Assembly (NCBI GenBank): GCA_038893495.1
Contig: JAWARJ010000001.1
Span: 1,477,824-1,541,823 of the forward strand
Reading direction: 5' to 3'
Origin: Thermoproteus sp.
Lineage (GTDB): Archaea > Thermoproteota > Thermoprotei > Thermoproteales > Thermoproteaceae
DNA: 64,000 nucleotides
Below are positions 37,606-55,789 of this stretch, piece by piece. The first letter of the stretch is position 1. Each line of letters opens with the position of its first letter. The notes below the pieces were generated by a model that ran no database searches, was not told where the DNA came from, and was given only the letters and a program-made list of their open reading frames with translations. Made by a program: the position numbers and the translations under genes.

Positions 37606-37656
37606 TATAAATTTCCCTTTTACCTACATATATTCGGAAAAAATCTGAATAATTGT

Positions 37657-37683: not shown

Positions 37684-39006
37684 ATGAATGAACATGAAGT
37701 TAGATGGACTGCAGATGCCGTAAAGGCCATAGTCTCTCAATTTATCGGCTTCATGATGGACGCCTACGACTTATTGTTAGTCACCGCCATGACGAACCTA
37801 TTGGCCAAGGTGTTCTTGCCCCCGTCGACGCCGGCTTGGCTCAGCTACTTCCAGTTGCTTTTTGGATATGCCTTTACCCTAATAGGGAGACCTGTCGGGA
37901 GCGCCATATTCGGCAACCTCGGCGACAAGATAGGGAGGAGAGACACCCTTATCATCACAATCGCCGGGTTCTCCGCCATGAGTGCGCTGACCGGCGCTCT
38001 GCCTACATACGCGCAGATAGGCATATCGGCCTACATCATCTTTTCCGCCATGAGGTTCATACAGGGCATATTCATCGGCGGCGAATACGCCGTGGGCCAC
38101 ACATTTTCTATGGAGTATGCGCCTATACATAGGAGGGGACTCGCCAGCGGGATCGTCCAGGGGGCTTTCAGCTGGGGCACGGCGCTGTCCGCAGGAGTCG
38201 TGGCGGCGTTCTACGCGTTGTTGGGAGACCAAGCTATGTTGAGCTATGGCTGGCGCCTCGTCTTCCTGACAGGCTTAATACCTGCGGCCGTGGCACTCTA
38301 TATACGTTTCGGGATGAAGGAGTCGCCACTCTTCGAGAACATCAAGACAGCTGGGAAGGTCGAGAAGGCGCCTTTCTTCTCCATATTCAAGCCCCCGACC
38401 CTCTATACCTTCCTACAGGTCTTTGTGCTCATGACGGGACTCTTTTTCAGTAGCTACTCCCTCTTCAACTACGCCAATGGCATACTCACAGGCGCGGGCC
38501 TCAGCGGGGGCCAAGCCGCGTTCTACTACTCCATGGCCGGCATCTTCGCCGCAATAGCGGCGACCTTCACCGGCTTCATATCGGACTACATCGGCAGGCG
38601 GAAGGCCTTCCTGATCGCCGCCGCAGTGACTTTTGTCATGGCGGTCCCCACGTTCTACCTGTGGTACATAGGCGCCAAGACGGGCAACCTGGCCTACCTG
38701 TGGATAGGGACCGTGCTGGCCGGCTGGATGACACAGTGGCCCTGGGGCCTCGTGCCGACCTACCTCTCCGAGAGGTTCCCCACGAACAAGAGGTCGAGCG
38801 GCGTGGGGTTCGGCTACAGCTCGGGCCTCTTCATATCGGCCTGGATGTCCATATACTCCATATGGCTGGCCCCCGTCTTTAAGCCCATACAGGGATACGT
38901 GCCGTGGTTCACCGCAGCCTTCTTCTTGATGTTGGCGTCGGTGCTCTACGGCATAGCGGCGGCCATAGGGCCGGAGACTAAAGGCATAAGGCTGAGCGAA
39001 ATCTAA
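37684..39006 (+). CDS. MFS transporter (metabolite:H+ symporter type)
   Basis: A 440-aa, 12-helix transporter. GRPVGSAIFGNLGDKIGRRDTL (about 79) is the MFS loop 2-3 motif, RFIQGIFIGGEYAVG (about 123) is motif B of metabolite:H+ symporters, and FISDYIGRRKAFLI (about 300) is its C-half repeat. The N-terminus has the FMMDAYDLLLVTAM pattern. The family moves organic acids, phosphate or sugars; the substrate cannot be read. It follows the decayed oxidoreductase. Confidence 0.92.
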   Translation: MNEHEVRWTADAVKAIVSQFIGFMMDAYDLLLVTAMTNLLAKVFLPPSTPAWLSYFQLLFGYAFTLIGRPVGSAIFGNLGDKIGRRDTLIITIAGFSAMSALTGALPTYAQIGISAYIIFSAMRFIQGIFIGGEYAVGHTFSMEYAPIHRRGLASGIVQGAFSWGTALSAGVVAAFYALLGDQAMLSYGWRLVFLTGLIPAAVALYIRFGMKESPLFENIKTAGKVEKAPFFSIFKPPTLYTFLQVFVLMTGLFFSSYSLFNYANGILTGAGLSGGQAAFYYSMAGIFAAIAATFTGFISDYIGRRKAFLIAAAVTFVMAVPTFYLWYIGAKTGNLAYLWIGTVLAGWMTQWPWGLVPTYLSERFPTNKRSSGVGFGYSSGLFISAWMSIYSIWLAPVFKPIQGYVPWFTAAFFLMLASVLYGIAAAIGPETKGIRLSEI

Positions 39007-47527: not shown

Positions 47528-48433
47528 TCAACCCCTACGCGCCGCGATGGGACGAGTCTTGAAGACTTCCCTCAACATCGTGCCTATGCCTATTATGCCC
47601 ACGACCGATAGGACTAGGATGGTGCCTATGTTTATCGAGTCGAGATTGGGCACGGGGACTCCGGTGGCGAGCCCCCAGCTGTCTATGGCTGGGAGCGCCA
47701 AGATCAAGGCGCCTGCGGCTACGAACAAAATCCCGCCGTAGTATAGGGTGAAGCCCGCCGTACGCCTCGCTATCTTGGTTATCTGCTCCTCGGAGAGCCC
47801 CCTCATCCTCATAATGGAGCCGAAGAGGGCGCCCAACGCTACCTGTAGGGCCATGGTGCCGAGCCCGAAGAAGAGGCCGGGGAGCGGCGCATAGGCCAGA
47901 GAGCCCACCTGCGGGGCCAAGACGAAGGTTAGCACGCTCGCATAGGCCCCGAAGCCGAACCCCGCGATGAGGCCGTGGACGACGGTCATGCCCAGAGGGA
48001 CGTCGCGCTCCTCGAGCTCGTGCATGGGGACTCCGCCCACGTGGTCGCTGTGGTGCCTATGGCCGCCTAGAGCTACATCTATGGGGATGTGTATATATCG
48101 GCCCTTGAGGACGTACGACCCTGCGGCCGCCATGGCTATGCCGACGGCCACGTAGACCGGCCCGTCTAGATTATATTGGTTGTATATCTGGGCGAGTCCG
48201 AGGTAGCCTAGAGTGGTCAAGAAGGCCCTTTGGATCGTGAAGCCCAACGAGAACAAAAAGCCTGCCTTCATCCCGCCTCTAGTGCTGTATTTGCCCACGG
48301 CGTAGCTGAAGGTTATGGGCCACGTGTGTTCGTCTGGCGTCGCCCCGTGGAGGACCCCCAATACGAAAGAAATGAGGAGTATCTCGCCTAGGTGCAACCC
48401 GCTCGGCGGCTGTAAGAGCCAACTTAAATTCAC
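47528..48433 (-). CDS. NicO/UreH-like nickel or cobalt permease
   Basis: A 301-aa membrane protein with about seven helices. LGVLHGATPDEHTWPITFSY (about 26) is a variant of the HxxxxDxxH metal motif of NiCoT-type carriers, and a cytoplasmic loop HRHHSDH (about 124) is His-rich. VVHGLIAGFGFGAYASVL (about 150) repeats the motif. Likely imports or exports nickel or cobalt. The start is GTG 48433, about 24 nt after ATTTTTATG. It lies downstream of fdhD with a 47-base gap and a separate promoter. Confidence 0.75.
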   Translation of the reverse strand: MNLSWLLQPPSGLHLGEILLISFVLGVLHGATPDEHTWPITFSYAVGKYSTRGGMKAGFLFSLGFTIQRAFLTTLGYLGLAQIYNQYNLDGPVYVAVGIAMAAAGSYVLKGRYIHIPIDVALGGHRHHSDHVGGVPMHELEERDVPLGMTVVHGLIAGFGFGAYASVLTFVLAPQVGSLAYAPLPGLFFGLGTMALQVALGALFGSIMRMRGLSEEQITKIARRTAGFTLYYGGILFVAAGALILALPAIDSWGLATGVPVPNLDSINIGTILVLSVVGIIGIGTMLREVFKTRPIAARRG

Positions 48434-48480: not shown

Positions 48481-49197
48481 CTATTTCTCCGAATTGACCC
48501 ACCCGCCGTGCATAGGCCCTTCGACCCTCCAGGGATTGCAGAGAGGCAATAGGCCGCGCCCCCTCACGTTGGCCACTAACGTAACGCCAAGCCTACAGGC
48601 GGCCTCCACGCCGCTGTATAGGGGACCCCTTATGCTGACCACTATAGACGCGCCAGCGGCCGCGGCCCTTTCCACTAAGTCCGAAGAGGCCCTGCCCGTA
48701 GTGAACGCTATCCCGCCCCTCCTCCCCGCCTTGAGCGCCTTCCCCACCAGCTTCAACATGGAACTGTGTCTACTCACGTCGTGGGCTATTATCCACTCGC
48801 CGTTAAGTAAGGCGGAGGTGTGCATGGCGAGACTCGGCTCTACGGACGGCATGGTGAACTTGCCGAACTCGGACACCAGAGACCTCAGCTTCTCCATGTC
48901 CACCTTGGCCTCCACCAATGCCCAACGGCGCTCTCCCTCGATGCCTCCGCACTCCTCGAGCAACCTTCCAGTAGACTTGGCGTCGCCTCTGATCCTCGCC
49001 CTTATCCTCCTCCCCGACACCTCTAGCTCTAACACGTCGTCAAGGCCCTCTATGTACCCCTCCGCATATAGGAAGCCGAGGGCCAACTCGTCGAGGTCTG
49101 AGGGAGACGCCACTAGAGTCGCCTCTAAGTTCCCGTTAACGTAGATCTGAAATAATTGGTCGACGGCTACCTTTATGCCGTTAACGTCGCGCCACAT
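48481..49197 (-). CDS. fdhD: formate dehydrogenase accessory sulfurtransferase FdhD
   Basis: A 238-aa protein that carries sulfur to the molybdopterin of formate dehydrogenase. DELALGFLYAEGYIEG (about 35) and AMHTSALLNG with AHDVSRHSSMLKLVGKAL (about 140) are family motifs; TTGRASSDLVERAA (about 170) is conserved too. The sulfur-carrying loop has only one cysteine (LLEECGGIEGE, about 83) instead of the CxxC of E. coli FdhD. It overlaps fdhE by 17 bases and is the last gene of the formate dehydrogenase operon. Confidence 0.92.
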   Translation of the reverse strand: MWRDVNGIKVAVDQLFQIYVNGNLEATLVASPSDLDELALGFLYAEGYIEGLDDVLELEVSGRRIRARIRGDAKSTGRLLEECGGIEGERRWALVEAKVDMEKLRSLVSEFGKFTMPSVEPSLAMHTSALLNGEWIIAHDVSRHSSMLKLVGKALKAGRRGGIAFTTGRASSDLVERAAAAGASIVVSIRGPLYSGVEAACRLGVTLVANVRGRGLLPLCNPWRVEGPMHGGWVNSEK

Positions 49198-49756
49198 AGC
49201 CCGCCAAGATCCTAAGCCCGTATTCGTCCTCCTCGTCGAGCTCGCCCTGGATCTCCACTTGCGCGAAGCCGCAACGCCTACATCTCAAAATCGTAACTCC
49301 GTCGAGGCCCTCCTTGAAGAACACGTCGAAGTTCTCGCGGCCCTCGGAGCCGCAGGACGGACAGCGCCACCAGACGTAACGCCACGTGAAGCCGCAGACG
49401 CACTTGGCAACTTTCTCCCTGCCCTCGAAGAACGCCCCGGGCCTAGGCCTCACTAGGAAGAGGCTTGGCGTGTTCCCGCAGATCGGACACCTATCGCCAG
49501 TCCAGTCACTAAACTTAACGCCGTATCTGGCGGCCAGCCTAGCCGCCACTAGGAGCTTCGCCAGATGCCCGTCGCCGATGGCCTCCGTTATTTCGCCTAT
49601 GTTCTCCACTCTATCCACGAGGGGTGGGACTTCTGACGACAGTTTGGGCTGGGGTATCTCCATTGAAAAAAGGGCCTTGATTTCCCTTACGGCGGACTTC
49701 ACCTCCTCTACGCAATTGGCGTCGCCGCTACAGATCGCCTCAAGTCTTCTGGACAC
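49181..49756 (-). CDS. fdhE: FdhE-like zinc-ribbon accessory protein
   Basis: A 191-aa protein related to FdhE, an assembly factor for respiratory formate dehydrogenase. The C-terminal half has four CxxC pairs: RCPICGN, KCVCGF, WRCPSCGSE and RCRRCGF, which form rubredoxin-like metal sites. The N-terminal half is helical. GTG 49756 is the likely start and overlaps the fdnI stop by 17 bases; the longer frame to 49816 reads inside fdnI. Confidence 0.88.
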   Translation of the reverse strand: MSRRLEAICSGDANCVEEVKSAVREIKALFSMEIPQPKLSSEVPPLVDRVENIGEITEAIGDGHLAKLLVAARLAARYGVKFSDWTGDRCPICGNTPSLFLVRPRPGAFFEGREKVAKCVCGFTWRYVWWRCPSCGSEGRENFDVFFKEGLDGVTILRCRRCGFAQVEIQGELDEEDEYGLRILAGYVARR

Positions 49757-50465
49757 GGCTGAGGTATTTCGCCATGTTCTTCTTGGCCCACTCCACAGGC
49801 ACTTTGCCGTATCCAAACATGGCCACTAGGAGCGGCCTATTAGCTGGATGCAACGAGGCGAAGAGGTGTAGGAAGACGAATATCAAGCTCAAATAGAAGC
49901 CTATGTCGTGTAGCAACAGGAAAATCCTATATTGATCTATCGTAAGGCCTAGGGCGTTGCTATAGGCCAGGAACACCCCGCTGATCGACAACAGGACTAG
50001 CCCTATCACGAGCAGTATGGTCATGTATGCCACCAACACGTTGTGGCGCTCCAATTCGTTGGCCACGTCGTCGGGTAGGGGCTCGCCTGTGGTGTAATGC
50101 CGCAAGAGCGCCGAGGCTTCCCTCATCTGTTTGCTAAACGGCTTTTTGAGCGCGTCGAACATTCTTATCCGCCTAAACGCCAATAGGTATATCGCATAGA
50201 CTATCAAGAAGAGGCCGTATATCTCGCCGAGGAACCTATGGCTTGTACGCGCTAGCTCCTCGCCTATAGTGACCGGGTTCGAGACGCCCATGGCGGCGGC
50301 CAGCGGGACGCCTACCGCATAGGAAAGCCAACTCATAAGCGCAGGGAATAACAACATGGAGCCCGTTATCGCCATTAGCGTAAAGAGGACCAAGTTTAAA
50401 GTATGTGCAATTTTGTACCCAATAGATGCAACTTCAATTTCTTCCTCAGATTTTACACTAGACAT
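49740..50465 (-). CDS. fdnI: formate dehydrogenase cytochrome b subunit (FdnI-like)
   Basis: A 241-aa membrane protein. Helices lie near 20-45, 75-95, 142-168 and 178-205. Histidines in the first helix (IAHTLNLVLF), between (TSHRFLGEIY), and in the last helices (LLHDIGFYLSLIFVFLHLFASLHP) fit the two b-type hemes of FdnI. It passes electrons from the iron-sulfur subunit to quinone. It starts 30 bases after fdnH ends. Confidence 0.88.
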   Translation of the reverse strand: MSSVKSEEEIEVASIGYKIAHTLNLVLFTLMAITGSMLLFPALMSWLSYAVGVPLAAAMGVSNPVTIGEELARTSHRFLGEIYGLFLIVYAIYLLAFRRIRMFDALKKPFSKQMREASALLRHYTTGEPLPDDVANELERHNVLVAYMTILLVIGLVLLSISGVFLAYSNALGLTIDQYRIFLLLHDIGFYLSLIFVFLHLFASLHPANRPLLVAMFGYGKVPVEWAKKNMAKYLSRVQKT

Positions 50466-50495
50466 GTTATAAATAAAGGGCAGTAGTTTAAAAAT

Positions 50496-51335
50496 TTAAC
50501 GGGCCTTAGCCTCTTCAGTTCTCGCCTTGCGCCAAGCCGCTATGCCCAACACGGTGAGCCCCACTGCGGCTATAGGCGCCACGTACATCGCGATATCTTT
50601 GAGGTACTCCCTTATGGAGTTCGAGACGACGACGGCGGACTTGGGGAAGTGTTGCTGTATGGCGAAGCTCTTCCTGTCCGAGGCCACGTATATCCACCTC
50701 ACTTGTCCGCCCACATAGGGGTCTAGGTTGAGGCCGTAGACGGTCCTGCCGTTGGCCTCCTCGGCCTTGGCCATCTGTATTATGTCGGAGGCGTTGCCGA
50801 AGGTAAAGACGCCGGTGGGACAGACCTCGACGCATGCAGGGGCGCGGCCGTTTTGTATCCTGTCCACACAGAAGGTGCACTTGTAGTACCGTCCGTCGCT
50901 TCCCCTTCTCGGCACGTCGAAGGGACAGGCGTTTTCGCAATAGCCGCACCCTATACACTGGTCCTTGTTTATGACGACGGCGCCCTCGGGAGTCACGTTT
51001 ATGGCGCCGGCTGGACAGGCCCTGGCGCAGGGGGCGGCGGCGCAGTGGAGACAGTTGTAGGGCAGAGGCGCTATGTCCACCTGCGAGAAGGCCACCTCGC
51101 CGGCCGGAGTTTTCAAGCCCTTCTGCACGACGCCCTCGTAGTAGAACACCACCTTCCAGTCTTGAGCCGTGAGGGATTGCGGCTCCGTGAAAGTGGGGCT
51201 GAAGGAGGTCTTGGTGGGCTGTAGCCCGTTCCAGTCCTTACAGGCCAGCTGACACGCCCTACAGCCGATACACTTGTCCAAATCCACCAATACCGCGAAG
51301 CCTTGTGTGGCCGGAGGGAAGTTGACGGGGGCCAT
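50496..51335 (-). CDS. fdnH: formate dehydrogenase iron-sulfur subunit (FdnH-like)
   Basis: A 279-aa protein with four 4Fe-4S clusters. Cysteine groups are CIGCRACQLACKDWN (about 19), CLHCAAAPCARACPAG (about 95), CIGCGYCENACPFDVP (about 128) and CTFCVDRI with CVEVCPTG (about 150-165). A C-terminal helix (YVAPIAAVGLTVLGIAAW) anchors it to the membrane. It sits 2 bases after fdnG and transfers electrons to the cytochrome b subunit. Confidence 0.93.
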   Translation of the reverse strand: MAPVNFPPATQGFAVLVDLDKCIGCRACQLACKDWNGLQPTKTSFSPTFTEPQSLTAQDWKVVFYYEGVVQKGLKTPAGEVAFSQVDIAPLPYNCLHCAAAPCARACPAGAINVTPEGAVVINKDQCIGCGYCENACPFDVPRRGSDGRYYKCTFCVDRIQNGRAPACVEVCPTGVFTFGNASDIIQMAKAEEANGRTVYGLNLDPYVGGQVRWIYVASDRKSFAIQQHFPKSAVVVSNSIREYLKDIAMYVAPIAAVGLTVLGIAAWRKARTEEAKAR

Positions 51336-51337
51336 GG

Positions 51338-54300
51338 CTACACGGACGGCGCCTTCCTTATTGCTCCTAGCCAGGCCTTAGACTCTTGTATTGTCGTCAC
51401 CACGTCGCCGACATCGGGCACCAAGAAGTTGCCTTCGGGACCTGTGTCGTAGCCCTCGAAGCTGAAGGCCCATATCACGTTCACCACAGGCACGGTCTGG
51501 CCGGCCACCGTGACGTAGGCCTCGCCGTCCGTCACGAAGGCCCTCATCTTTAGGCCCCCTCTAGCGGTCCAGAGCTCCACATAGTCGCCACTGTTAACGC
51601 CCAGCTGTTGCGCCAAGCTCTTAGGCACATAGACGAAGGGCTCCGGCACGAGCTCCACTAGGAAGGGCACGTTGCGCGACATAGAGCCGCTGTGCCAAGT
51701 CTCAGTAAGCCTATTGGTGGTCATGGCTACTATCACGGCGTCTGTTATGCCCCACTGGCTTAACAGCGCCTGGAGCTCCTTGGGCTCCAACGCGACGCCC
51801 ACAGGGTTGTTGTCCACCGCACTGGGCTGGTTCTGGAGGACCATTAGATTGTAGGGATTGAGCCAAGCTATGGTGGGGTACTGTATGGCCATAGAGACTA
51901 CAGGCGACTCCACGGGCTCTGCATGTATCGGCCACTGGAAGTTATAGCCGGCGTACCACCCGCCCATGTCCTGTATGACCTTCAACGTCGCTGCCTTGAG
52001 GTCGCCGAGCTGGTTGTAATATTGCTGTAGGAGAGACCTCATCTTGTCGTAGTTGGGCTTGAATTGAGCCCAGCCGCCGCCGGAGTAGAACGGCCTCTTC
52101 AACGCCGCCTTTAGCGACAAGGCGTCTTGGTCCCAATACAGCGCGTCGTTGGCCCATAGGTACTTCATGCCGGTCGACGCGGCGAATTGGTCGAAAGACA
52201 TCACGTTTACGCCTTGGTCCGTCTCCACCACGAACTTTCCGGGGAAGGCCAGCTGGCCCGTCCTTATGAACTCTATTATGTCCAAGCCGCCGAACACGTC
52301 GGCTATTCCGCTCAGCCTCCTCTTGAAGCTCTTGGGAGCCCAGAAGTTGTGGCCGGGCACGAAGGCCGGCCTGTAGTCGCCGGTGTATTCGTCTATGATT
52401 TCGCCCGTCTCTCCCGTCACGGTCCACTGTTGGCCCGCCGCCGTGACCACATCGGGCTTGCCTAACACCGCCACAAGCGAGTCGTAGTTGTACATAAAGC
52501 GCACGTTCATAGGCCACGACCAGCCCCAGTTCTTATACACGCCGAATTGAGAGCTGAACGTGCCGTCTATCTCCCCCGGCTGTCTCAACCTGTTGCTCCT
52601 CCTCATAGTCGTAAACTCGTCCCTCACCGGGTCGTAGATGCCTTGGTATATCAACACGGCATAGTTGATCTCCTTGTTAATTATACGCGGGTTGACTTGC
52701 GCCTCTATGTCCGCTATGGGCTCGGCCTGTCCGGTCCCGCCCGAGTAGTCCCAAGAGCGGTCCGGCTTCAACGGCCTTTCGTATACGAACACAACCTGGC
52801 CCTTCTTTCTGAACTTCACCTGCTCGCTCGAGACGCCGGCGGCCTCGCTGGGCAACAACACCGCGCCGGCCCTCCTCAAATACTGGTAGAGCTGAGCCAT
52901 TATCCAGTAGTCGGGCCTGGACTCGCCTACTGGCGGGACGGCCCTCCAAGTCCATTGTATCACCCTATTGCCGTCGGTCCTGGTGCCCTCCTTCTCCGCG
53001 AAAGAAGCGCCGGGAAGCACAACATCGGCGAACCAGGCGGTCTCAGTCTCGAAGATGTCCGTAACGACTAGGAGGTCTAGGCTGGCAAGCCCGGCCATAA
53101 CCATCTTAGCGTTGGGGTTGGTTACTGCAGGATTTTCGCCGAAGACAAACGCCGCCTTGATATTGCCCGCCAGGGCGTATCTGGGGAACGTGACCTCAGA
53201 GGCGCCGGCGCCGAACGGTATGTCGCATACCACAGTCCCGTTCTGGGGGTCGTCCTCGGGTATGGTGCCGCAGAAGATGCCCCAGGTCAGCTCCAAGCGG
53301 CGCCAGCCGTAGAACTCGAAGACTTCCAGAACTTTGGTCAGGTCGGCTTGGCCCCTAGAGGGGGCTGTTGTGGAGAAGTTCTTGAGGGCCCACTGCGGCA
53401 CCTCCCAACTCCAAGCGTCGGGCATCCCTTGTAGCTTCCAGTCTTGGTACAACCTCACGTCAAATGTGGTGGCCGGTTGCGTGTAGTAGCTGGGCAACAC
53501 GCCGAGGCCTCCTCCTTGCATATCGGTGGCCCCCTGCACGTTGCTGTGGCCTCTAAACGGATGCGTCCCGCCTCCGGGATAGCCCACGTTGCCCAACAAC
53601 AACTGCGCTATGGCAGCCGCCCTAATTATGTTTATAGTAGCATCGGTGTGTTGCGTGAAGCCCATGGCCCACTGTATCACTCCGTGCTTCTTGTGGCCTG
53701 TCACGACGCCGCTGTTCTCCACATAGAGCTGCGCCGCGGTCCTCAAGAGGTCTTTCGAGGCCCCCGTTATGTTGGAGACCGTATCTATGTCGTATTCTTG
53801 GACAAGCGCCTTTAAGTCTTGTAGGTCGCTCTGAGTTATATTCCAACGGGACATGAGCCTTTGGAATTCGGGGAGCTGGTCTATGGGCGGGTTCCTCTCG
53901 AAGAAGGCGTAGTGGAGGAAGTAGAGCAATATGGCCGCGTCGGTGCCCGGCCTGAAGGGGACCCACAAGTCGCTGGCCTCGGCAGTCCTGCTGTAACGAG
54001 GGTCGAACGTGATGAGTATGGTGCCGCGCTCCCGTTTGCCCTTGAGGAAGTAGTAGAACGATAGGGGATGCGCCTCGGCCGGGCTTGAGAAGAACAACAC
54101 CACGTCCGCCAGTGCCACGTCCTCTATAGAGGCGGTCTCGGCGCCCCAGCCGTAGGTCACAGCCAGCGAGGTGACCGTCGACGAGTGGCACTTACGGTAC
54201 TGGGAGTCGGTGTTGGAGGTGCCCAAAAACGCAGCTAACTTCCTAGAGAGGTATGCCTCCTCGTTGGTGAGTATCGAAGAGCCTATGACCATAAACGGAT

Positions 54301-54871
54301 TGGCGCCGCCGACGTAGTAGTAGCCGTCTTTCTGCTTCGGCGCGCCCGTCTGATTACGCCAAGAGTTCAATATGTCCGCCGCCTTGTTCGCTATATAGTT
54401 AAAGGCTTCCTCCCACGACACTCTCCTCCATTGCGGTGGGTATTTCTTGACGACGGCCACTAGGTCGTCCCAAGTCTTGGCGGCCAGTATCTCGTCCACA
54501 GGCGGCTTGGGCCCCGTCCTGATCATCGGGTACATCAGACGCCGCTGGTTGTTGACGAGCTGGAACGCCGCCTTGCCCTTAGGGCATAGAGCGCCCCAGT
54601 TTATGTAGGAGTCGGGCGATCCGGCGGACCAAAGCACCGTCTGGCCGTTTGTGTACATGTCTATGGAGCAACCCATGGAGCAGTAAGGACAAATAGTTGG
54701 GGTGACCCTTGCTTGTTGTAGGCCGGTCTTGCCTCCTATCTCGCCGAGAGCCCAGCTGGTCTTGCCCGTGACGAAAGGCAACTGTACCTGCGCCGAGGAG
54801 GGCAACCCAAGCGCCAAAGCGGCCAGGGCCGATATCTTCAAGAAGGTCCTCCTAGTGGTCGTTACGGTCAT
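51338..54871 (-). CDS. fdnG: formate dehydrogenase catalytic subunit, Mo/W type (FdnG-like)
   Basis: A 1177-aa molybdopterin enzyme exported by the Tat route. The N-terminus has a Tat signal (TTTRRTFLKISALAALALG). CPYCSMGCSIDMY (about 62) binds a 4Fe-4S cluster. RKCHSSTVTSLAVTYGWGAE (about 226) has cysteine where bacterial FdnG has selenocysteine, so no recoding is needed. The rest carries the molybdopterin-guanine binding domains. ATG 54871 overlaps the stop of the small upstream gene (ATGA); an in-frame TTG at 54892 is less likely. The enzyme oxidises formate outside the membrane and feeds electrons to quinone through FdnH and FdnI. Confidence 0.93.
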   Translation of the reverse strand: MTVTTTRRTFLKISALAALALGLPSSAQVQLPFVTGKTSWALGEIGGKTGLQQARVTPTICPYCSMGCSIDMYTNGQTVLWSAGSPDSYINWGALCPKGKAAFQLVNNQRRLMYPMIRTGPKPPVDEILAAKTWDDLVAVVKKYPPQWRRVSWEEAFNYIANKAADILNSWRNQTGAPKQKDGYYYVGGANPFMVIGSSILTNEEAYLSRKLAAFLGTSNTDSQYRKCHSSTVTSLAVTYGWGAETASIEDVALADVVLFFSSPAEAHPLSFYYFLKGKRERGTILITFDPRYSRTAEASDLWVPFRPGTDAAILLYFLHYAFFERNPPIDQLPEFQRLMSRWNITQSDLQDLKALVQEYDIDTVSNITGASKDLLRTAAQLYVENSGVVTGHKKHGVIQWAMGFTQHTDATINIIRAAAIAQLLLGNVGYPGGGTHPFRGHSNVQGATDMQGGGLGVLPSYYTQPATTFDVRLYQDWKLQGMPDAWSWEVPQWALKNFSTTAPSRGQADLTKVLEVFEFYGWRRLELTWGIFCGTIPEDDPQNGTVVCDIPFGAGASEVTFPRYALAGNIKAAFVFGENPAVTNPNAKMVMAGLASLDLLVVTDIFETETAWFADVVLPGASFAEKEGTRTDGNRVIQWTWRAVPPVGESRPDYWIMAQLYQYLRRAGAVLLPSEAAGVSSEQVKFRKKGQVVFVYERPLKPDRSWDYSGGTGQAEPIADIEAQVNPRIINKEINYAVLIYQGIYDPVRDEFTTMRRSNRLRQPGEIDGTFSSQFGVYKNWGWSWPMNVRFMYNYDSLVAVLGKPDVVTAAGQQWTVTGETGEIIDEYTGDYRPAFVPGHNFWAPKSFKRRLSGIADVFGGLDIIEFIRTGQLAFPGKFVVETDQGVNVMSFDQFAASTGMKYLWANDALYWDQDALSLKAALKRPFYSGGGWAQFKPNYDKMRSLLQQYYNQLGDLKAATLKVIQDMGGWYAGYNFQWPIHAEPVESPVVSMAIQYPTIAWLNPYNLMVLQNQPSAVDNNPVGVALEPKELQALLSQWGITDAVIVAMTTNRLTETWHSGSMSRNVPFLVELVPEPFVYVPKSLAQQLGVNSGDYVELWTARGGLKMRAFVTDGEAYVTVAGQTVPVVNVIWAFSFEGYDTGPEGNFLVPDVGDVVTTIQESKAWLGAIRKAPSV

Positions 54872-55077
54872 AGGCCCGTCGAGGAGCCCCAATTCTTATC
54901 CCGCTTCCCGAAGAGCTTTTTTGCCGTCATACAGGTGTAGTCCTCCTCGCCTGCTATGAGGCTGTAGAGGCCGCCGTAGCTCTCGCCCATTAGTCTCAAC
55001 TCCTTCTCGAAGACTTCTAGGAACTCTTGATGGCGCTTCTTGGCGCTCTCGTAAACTGCTTGAAAGTCTATTGCCAT
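54868..55077 (-). CDS. small leader protein of the formate dehydrogenase operon
   Basis: A 69-aa soluble, helical protein (DFQAVYESAKKRHQEFLEVF, GLYSLIAGEEDYTCMTAKKL). Its stop overlaps the fdnG start, so the two are co-translated. There is no signal peptide; it could be a dedicated chaperone for the Tat substrate fdnG or a small regulator. No family is recognised. A TATA-like GCTTAATATA lies at about 55101-55110, so it is the first gene of the operon. Confidence 0.8.
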   Translation of the reverse strand: MAIDFQAVYESAKKRHQEFLEVFEKELRLMGESYGGLYSLIAGEEDYTCMTAKKLFGKRDKNWGSSTGL

Positions 55078-55100
55078 TGACGGTAACTGTGGAAACTATA

Positions 55101-55110
55101 TTAAGCCTTA
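55101..55110 (-). promoter_or_regulatory. promoter of the formate dehydrogenase operon
   Basis: GCTTAATATA on the minus strand, about 28 nt before ATG 55077. It overlaps the last codon of the regulator gene by a few bases. Confidence 0.5.
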
Positions 55111-55725
55111 TTCGGGACCTCTCCGAATAAAATTTTTAAGGACGACGCCCAGCCGCTCGCACCGGCCCAGAAGGGGGCCTTTGCAATGTTGACACACGCC
55201 GAAGAACCACAACTCGCCGGACCTGTCTATTAGGACAATGCCCTTATGTCCGTCGAAGTTCACGGCGGGGAATTGAGTTGCTATTATTTGCGCCAAAAGC
55301 TCCACGAGCCCGCGGTCTAGAGAGAGTAGTTTCTCCAGGCTTATGGGGGCGCCCAATAGGCGCAACGTGGCGGCCAATAGGTCGTCGTCTAGCTCCTCTT
55401 GGTGCCCCTTAAGTCTCTCCAGAAATTCGCATATGCTCTTGCGGTCCACCTCCACCTTTATGCCTAACTTCTGGCCGATATATCTCCTAAAGGCCGAAAC
55501 CAGGGCAGAGGTGCAGCCCCACAGCTCCACATATCTAACGAGCCCCTTGAGGCTCGGCCGCAAACTCGCGGCCTTGTCCTCCACGACGTAGCCCTCCTTA
55601 ACTAACCTACCCACTTCGTAATAGACAGTGGAAGTAGGTATAGAGAGCTCTCTAGAGAGTCCATATCTCGATATGGGAAAGAGCTCGACTACAGACCTCA
55701 ATACGACTAACCGTCTGTTCTCCAC
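55108..55725 (-). CDS. winged-helix transcriptional regulator next to formate dehydrogenase
   Basis: About 205 aa. Residues 5-65 form a winged helix (ELFPISRYGLSRELSIPTST with YYEVGRLVKEGYV). The middle (70-165) is helical. The C-terminus reads GIVLIDRSGELWFFGVCQHC, then KGPLLGRC, a Cys-x2-Cys...Cys site for zinc, iron or a cluster. It lies directly upstream of the formate dehydrogenase operon on the same strand and probably controls it. A TATA-like GTTTTTATA at about 55746-55755 suits the GTG at 55725; ATGs at 55734 and 55746 are alternatives. Confidence 0.75.
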   Translation of the reverse strand: MENRRLVVLRSVVELFPISRYGLSRELSIPTSTVYYEVGRLVKEGYVVEDKAASLRPSLKGLVRYVELWGCTSALVSAFRRYIGQKLGIKVEVDRKSICEFLERLKGHQEELDDDLLAATLRLLGAPISLEKLLSLDRGLVELLAQIIATQFPAVNFDGHKGIVLIDRSGELWFFGVCQHCKGPLLGRCERLGVVLKNFIRRGPE

Positions 55726-55789
55726 TATGATCATCGTCATTTGCATATAAAAACAATAACATTTTGAGACCCACCGAGCGTCGCGCGGG

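Follow-up and report, generated by a model that had tools for sequence, protein, structure and literature searches.

What does a 69-residue protein of no known family do at the head of an archaeal formate dehydrogenase (FDH) operon, and what does the regulator gene in front of it control? Both questions arise in a 64,000-nucleotide stretch of Thermoproteus sp. DNA, analysed as a whole and called the window here, which sits in a 1,995,394-base archaeal chromosome (genome G000 in our numbering). Along the minus strand, genes for a winged-helix regulator, the 69-residue small protein, FdnG, FdnH, FdnI, an FdhE-like protein and FdhD follow one another, all of them in the place and order that an earlier note, made from the sequence alone, had given. 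That note had suggested a dedicated chaperone for an exported FdnG and a redox- or metal-sensing regulator. The reading that we favour, with belief and doubt about evenly balanced, is that the small protein acts as an assembly factor in the manner of FdsD, its C-terminus being linked to export, that it is dedicated to the formate dehydrogenase N (FDH-N) of one archaeal clade, and that its neighbour is the operon's own regulator.

The small gene (54868..55077, minus strand) and fdnG (51338..54871, minus strand) overlap, as the earlier note had it. An automatic open reading frame (ORF) call started fdnG at TTG 54892; the conserved start is ATG 54871 (MTVTTTRRTFLKIS...), which gives a protein of 1177 residues and shares the four bases ATGA with the stop codon of the small gene, an arrangement found at 12 of 12 Thermoproteus- and Pyrobaculum-type loci. 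The small protein would be translated just ahead of FdnG, and translation of the two is probably coupled.

Homologues, synteny and substitution rates together indicate that the small protein represents a real, conserved family. Homologues occur in 11 other genomes of the same taxonomic family (E 3e-8 to 2e-29); named carriers among the relatives are Pyrobaculum oguniense and three records from Thermoproteus, and we accordingly call the genera g1 (Thermoproteus-like) and g2 (Pyrobaculum). Of 19 family genomes, 12 have the small protein with E 3e-8 or better, and all 12 have fdnG. A profile search found it in 18 of 81 genomes of the class and in 20 of 398 genomes of the phylum (Thermoproteota), and in every one of these 20 the small gene stands directly before fdnG, which is cut by the contig end in G017. 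The earlier note had allowed that the protein might prove not to be conserved; it is conserved, and its linkage with fdnG is strongly supported. Weak matches in G017 and G010 and second matches in G016, G012 and G005 were dropped from the family search, G017 being accepted later by profile; weak matches in G011 and G047 and second matches in G005 and G048 were dropped from the class search. Members are 56–72 residues long and conserved in amino-acid sequence across four families, with L40, D46 and C49 invariant in 18 members and L37, K53 and G57 nearly so. The ratio of nonsynonymous to synonymous substitution rates (dN/dS) was 0.10–0.32 in the 4 of 10 pairs for which it could be computed, synonymous sites being saturated in the other pairs. 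A search of plasmids gave no match.

This conservation bears on a reading in which the small gene is a leader ORF whose translation, rather than product, controls fdnG expression. It is the first gene of the presumed transcript, and the four-base overlap at all 12 loci would suit such a role. We reject the idea as very improbable because conservation is seen at the protein level, in the residues kept across four families and in the dN/dS values; moreover, several distant genomes have lost the overlap and keep the protein.

Seven genomes of the phylum carry a more distant FDH with no small-protein match in the 398-genome search. The protein was not found in any of the five more distant FDH regions with intact upstream DNA (G098, G257, G313, G388 and G096; hmmsearch --max, E<=10); the missing match in G043 says little, because its fdnG is cut at the 5′ end. 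G011, which has no FDH, contains a decayed small gene next to what is left of fdhD (L098 1–635), a sign that the operon was lost recently.

The best models for FdnG of the window are FDH alpha subunits, and among solved structures FDHs are closest to it. With 384.8 bits against an equivalog cut-off of 814.2 for TIGR01553, it is a divergent relative of the FDH-N catalytic subunit. In the alignment, the positions of Sec196, His197 and Arg446 of E. coli FdnG are C, H and R in the window protein and throughout its clade; the four cysteines of a 4Fe-4S cluster are found at 61, 64, 68 and 96, and a twin-arginine (Tat) signal is present, as the earlier note had recognised. In the T. tenax genome paper, FDH alpha is named solely for its predicted export by the Tat system. 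The 18 FdnGs with a small-protein partner that were placed in a tree form one clade, with support of 1.000 against the outgroups. Left outside the tree were G017 (fdnG cut at the contig end), G270 (the last of the seven genomes with a more distant FDH; region not fetched) and G012, which is also outside the promoter counts below, as its contig starts within the small gene and its fdnG is broken into three frames (L044 208–3717, in a metagenome assembly; sequence error or pseudogene). In one Pyrobaculum genome, G002 (L038 5757–12933), the genes of the operon are ordered as in Thermoproteus, and FdnG falls among the Thermoproteus sequences; on these grounds the whole operon, regulator included, was likely acquired by horizontal transfer.

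The most telling case is a third genus, g3 (G017 and G018). At its loci (L097 6573–10759 and L051 1–475) the FDH catalytic subunit begins at the mature enzyme and has no Tat signal, and the small gene still precedes fdnG. The small proteins of both genomes keep the core EDYSC and have lost the C-terminal AKKLxGKRDK (GKRDK). They have an FdhD, with 56% identity. A search for FdhE at E<=10, whose query succeeded in both comparison genomes, found none in G017 or G018, and no fdnI is seen after fdnH at the G018 locus, a genome-wide fdnI search not having been made. FdhE, a factor associated with periplasmic FDHs (PMC10609526), is FDH-specific and encoded in the same operon as the small protein; it differs from it in being a separate gene at this locus and in not being found in the two g3 genomes, which keep the small protein. 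The g3 enzyme apparently derives from an exported FDH and has become cytoplasmic. As G018 is nested inside the clade and the Tat-bearing FdnGs of G091 and G236 branch near its base, loss of the signal is probably derived; it counts as a single event.

Since the small protein is kept where the Tat signal is gone, it should be more than a signal-peptide chaperone; the g3 pattern points to two separable functions, one of the core, tied to FdnG, and one of the C-terminus, connected with export or with attachment to the membrane. The conserved core (E32, G36-L37, L40 and D46-Y47-C49) would serve the catalytic subunit itself, and the basic C-terminal stretch AKKLxGKRDK the exported, membrane-bound form.

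The NarJ, TorD and DmsD chaperones have about 200 residues; none of their profiles matched the small protein, with its 56–72 residues. Another candidate is NapD, whose gene directly precedes its partner gene napA. A NapD-like chaperone would bind only the FdnG Tat signal peptide and hold back export, and it would be expected, as here, directly before a Tat-exported subunit in the operon of a Tat-exported molybdoenzyme. Of the 20 partner FdnGs, 18 carry a Tat signal, and the small proteins of the two genomes without it have also lost the C-terminal motif. However, the small protein persists beside the signal-less FdnGs of G017 and G018, matches no NapD, TorD or NarJ profile and no Pfam family at all, and is predicted, at low confidence, to be helical rather than to have the ferredoxin-type fold given for NapD, the signal-peptide chaperone of periplasmic nitrate reductase, in PMC10609526. 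We regard this alternative as improbable: of the chaperone that the earlier note had in mind, the tie to fdnG is well supported, and a role confined to the signal peptide is not.

By analogy, the closest functional parallel would be FdsD of the NAD-dependent FDH of Rhodobacter capsulatus, which PMC7171172 describes as a helical, FDH-specific protein of 71 residues that promotes insertion of the bis-molybdopterin guanine dinucleotide (bis-MGD) cofactor and stays on the catalytic subunit. Both proteins have about 70 residues, are helical (the small protein according to a low-confidence model) and are confined to FDH operons. FdsD forms a four-helix bundle and belongs to cytoplasmic NAD-linked FDHs, whereas the small protein has two predicted helices, a conserved DYxC and a basic C-terminus, and is partnered mostly with exported FDH-N. 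In its AlphaFold model, a loop that carries the DYTC motif joins a long helix to another one, and there are no strands. For none of 18 members did the Pfam-A matches at E<=1 include the FdsD family, and no FdsD chain was among the PDB sequence matches at E<=10, whether the profile or the single protein was searched. Membership of the NapD, TorD or FdsD families was rejected for want of a profile or PDB match, and the earlier note was right that no known family is matched. Two features of FdnG itself were also considered. No clade-specific cysteine could pair with Cys49 of the small protein, the clade-conserved cysteines being the four cluster ligands and the active-site residue, which the outgroups share; and, judged by eye, FdnG showed no distinctive clade-specific cap loop comparable to the loop of FdsA.

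On the assembly-factor reading, the small protein most likely attaches to the FdnG polypeptide while this is still in the cytoplasm, receiving its cofactor and being assembled, and possibly stays bound. If it always stayed, it would be a permanent non-catalytic subunit, exported with FdnG–FdnH as a hitch-hiker, its basic C-terminus contacting FdnI or the membrane. The strict one-to-one pairing with fdnG would fit, as would retention after Tat loss, where decay is confined to the C-terminus and fdnH is not followed by fdnI; FdsD, a protein of much the same size, stays in its enzyme as a subunit (PMC7171172). Yet the E. coli fdnGHI annotation has no such gene between its neighbours, outgroup archaeal FDHs lack the small protein, and a first position before fdnG, in an operon with FdhD and FdhE, fits a maturation role equally well. 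We consider a permanent subunit possible, with distinctly more doubt than belief.

The second question concerns the regulator gene (55108..55746, minus strand), which starts at ATG 55746 or further in (GTG 55725 was the earlier call) and encodes about 205–212 residues. In the confident part of its AlphaFold model (pLDDT 82.9, pTM 0.81), helices at 11–51 and strands at 54–64 make up a predicted winged-helix DNA-binding domain; the best fold matches are mostly winged-helix regulators (E>=0.005, TM 0.2–0.3), with none at E<=0.001. It resembles TrmB, DtxR-MntR and IclR in its N-terminal winged helix and in weak profile and fold similarity, and differs from them in reaching no family cut-off (18.6 against a Pfam gathering score of 25.6 bits for TrmB, 16 against 26 bits for Fe_dep_repress) and in having a C-terminal C-x2-C...C site with a histidine. 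C78, C106, H167, C185, C188 and C196 are invariant in three aligned regulators and also visible in a wider set, bar an unlinked copy in G012. The earlier note had described this site as CQHC...C; it exists and is larger, with five cysteines and one histidine. Conservation of these residues is what was found in favour of the note's redox or metal sensor, and the protein may respond to metal, Fe–S or thiol state through them.

At 10 of 12 Thermoproteus- and Pyrobaculum-type FDH loci, the operon has the regulator gene upstream of it. In G014 the regulator ends one contig and the small gene begins another; in G012 the sole regulator homologue lies elsewhere and lacks the C-terminal Cys site. N-terminal-only paralogues and this G012 copy were excluded from the linked count. 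The regulator is thus linked to the operon wherever contigs of the two genera allow the check. Co-loss is seen as well: five FDH-less Pyrobaculum genomes have no regulator homologue better than E 1e-3, and the possibility raised in the earlier note, that the regulator occurs mostly without FDH, does not hold. BLAST found no regulator in the upstream DNA of G017. In Pyrobaculum except G002, fdhD lies between the regulator and the small gene.

Ahead of the small gene we found an operator-like palindrome, TTATTCGG-N7-CCGAATAA (55108..55130, assigned to neither strand), which overlaps the regulator stop codon; the earlier note had guessed a DNA site at 55080–55115, close to the conserved element. 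Its 17-bp core, TTCGG...CCGAA in the window and of the type TTCGR-N7-YCGAA in general, lies about 50 bp before the small-gene start codon, with its first base at −50 here and at −48 to −53 across promoters. A TATA-like box follows at once (TTAATATA, 55097..55104, minus strand), about 20–27 bases ahead of the small-gene ATG, a layout that relatives share and a spacing that would fit a leaderless transcript. Among genomes that have the regulator (G014 and G002, with its frameshift, included), 10 of 11 promoters hold a relaxed pattern, TTC[GA]-N9-[CT]GAA, in their last 100 bases, against 0.082 expected from dinucleotide shuffles; it occurs in 0 of 8 promoters of genomes without the regulator (0.043 expected), and the strict pattern in 9 of the 11 (0.001 expected). 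These counts describe rather than test, because the pattern was drawn from the same promoters. Stronger points are the absence of the palindrome where the regulator is absent and its presence behind two different upstream genes: in the Pyrobaculum genomes apart from G002, where fdhD comes in between, it is found at the end of fdhD or beyond, with unchanged spacing to the small gene.

Across 19 genomes the strict pattern is no commoner genome-wide than a reversed control, and most other matches lie inside open frames; for these reasons the protein would be a local regulator of the fdn operon. A wider regulon was considered and rejected, with the pattern elsewhere in the 19 genomes at control frequency and one intergenic site in the window's own genome not kept in orthologues. 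That site, a second operator-like palindrome, TTCGGAAAAAATCTGAATA (37633–37651), lies at −51 of a metabolite/H+ symporter-like major facilitator superfamily (MFS) gene (37684–39006), followed by a TATA-like stretch; it is missing from the orthologues in G013, G016 and G015, and is possibly a second target of the regulator in the window genome, or chance. We suggest that the winged-helix protein binds the palindrome as a local transcription factor, more likely as an activator, which a site directly 5′ of the B recognition element (BRE) and TATA box may fit; a repressor blocking TFB is also possible.

Several points weigh against the assembly factor with its own regulator, beside the common origin of pattern and promoter counts. 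The small protein matches no known chaperone or subunit in Pfam or among PDB sequences, and its model is weak (pLDDT 70.8, pTM 0.40, from 5 sequences). The case of Tat loss is a single event in one genus, with two genomes that are 80% and 91% complete. The G014 promoter has only one arm of the palindrome, and in G002 the regulator is split into two frames at a G-run (L038 12330–12933), with operator and operon intact. That split could be a pseudogene, a sequencing error or a switchable run. Neither the small protein nor the operator was mentioned in the literature searched, which left aside most subscription papers.

A fuller version of the same reading, in which our belief falls a little short of even, would give archaeal FDH-N a third maturation factor of its own, built in two parts. 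The core would drive or lock cofactor insertion into FdnG, as an FdsD analogue of independent origin, and the basic C-terminus would be a detachable export or membrane module, lost with the Tat signal. The operon would be under a dedicated transcription factor with a Cys/His site, for which each genome holds essentially a single 17-bp operator.

The remaining genes of the operon, all on the minus strand, are fdnH for the Fe–S subunit (50496..51335; TIGR01582 E 1e-46, below cut-off), fdnI for the cytochrome b subunit (49740..50465; PF01292 E 6.5e-13, TIGR01583 E 5.5e-7), the fdhE-like gene (49181..49816, start uncertain) and fdhD for the sulfurtransferase of FDH maturation (48481..49197; PF02634 E 2.5e-32). 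The identity of fdhD is certain; for fdhE the profile match is weak (TIGR01562 E 0.009, far below cut-off), and its identity is suggested by synteny and by BLAST to the same position in relatives. On the same strand, a gene for a 301-residue membrane protein with a weak LysE match (47528–48433) lies directly downstream of fdhD, and a sulredoxin (Rieske) gene (NF041174, 55790–56191) just upstream of the regulator; by BLAST, each is present at 0 of 21 related loci.

How FDHs acquire bis-MGD, and what delays their export until then, is an open problem, and a clade-confined factor with a natural variant that lacks the signal could separate insertion from export. The regulator and its operator form a simple candidate switch for formate respiration in Thermoproteus and Pyrobaculum.

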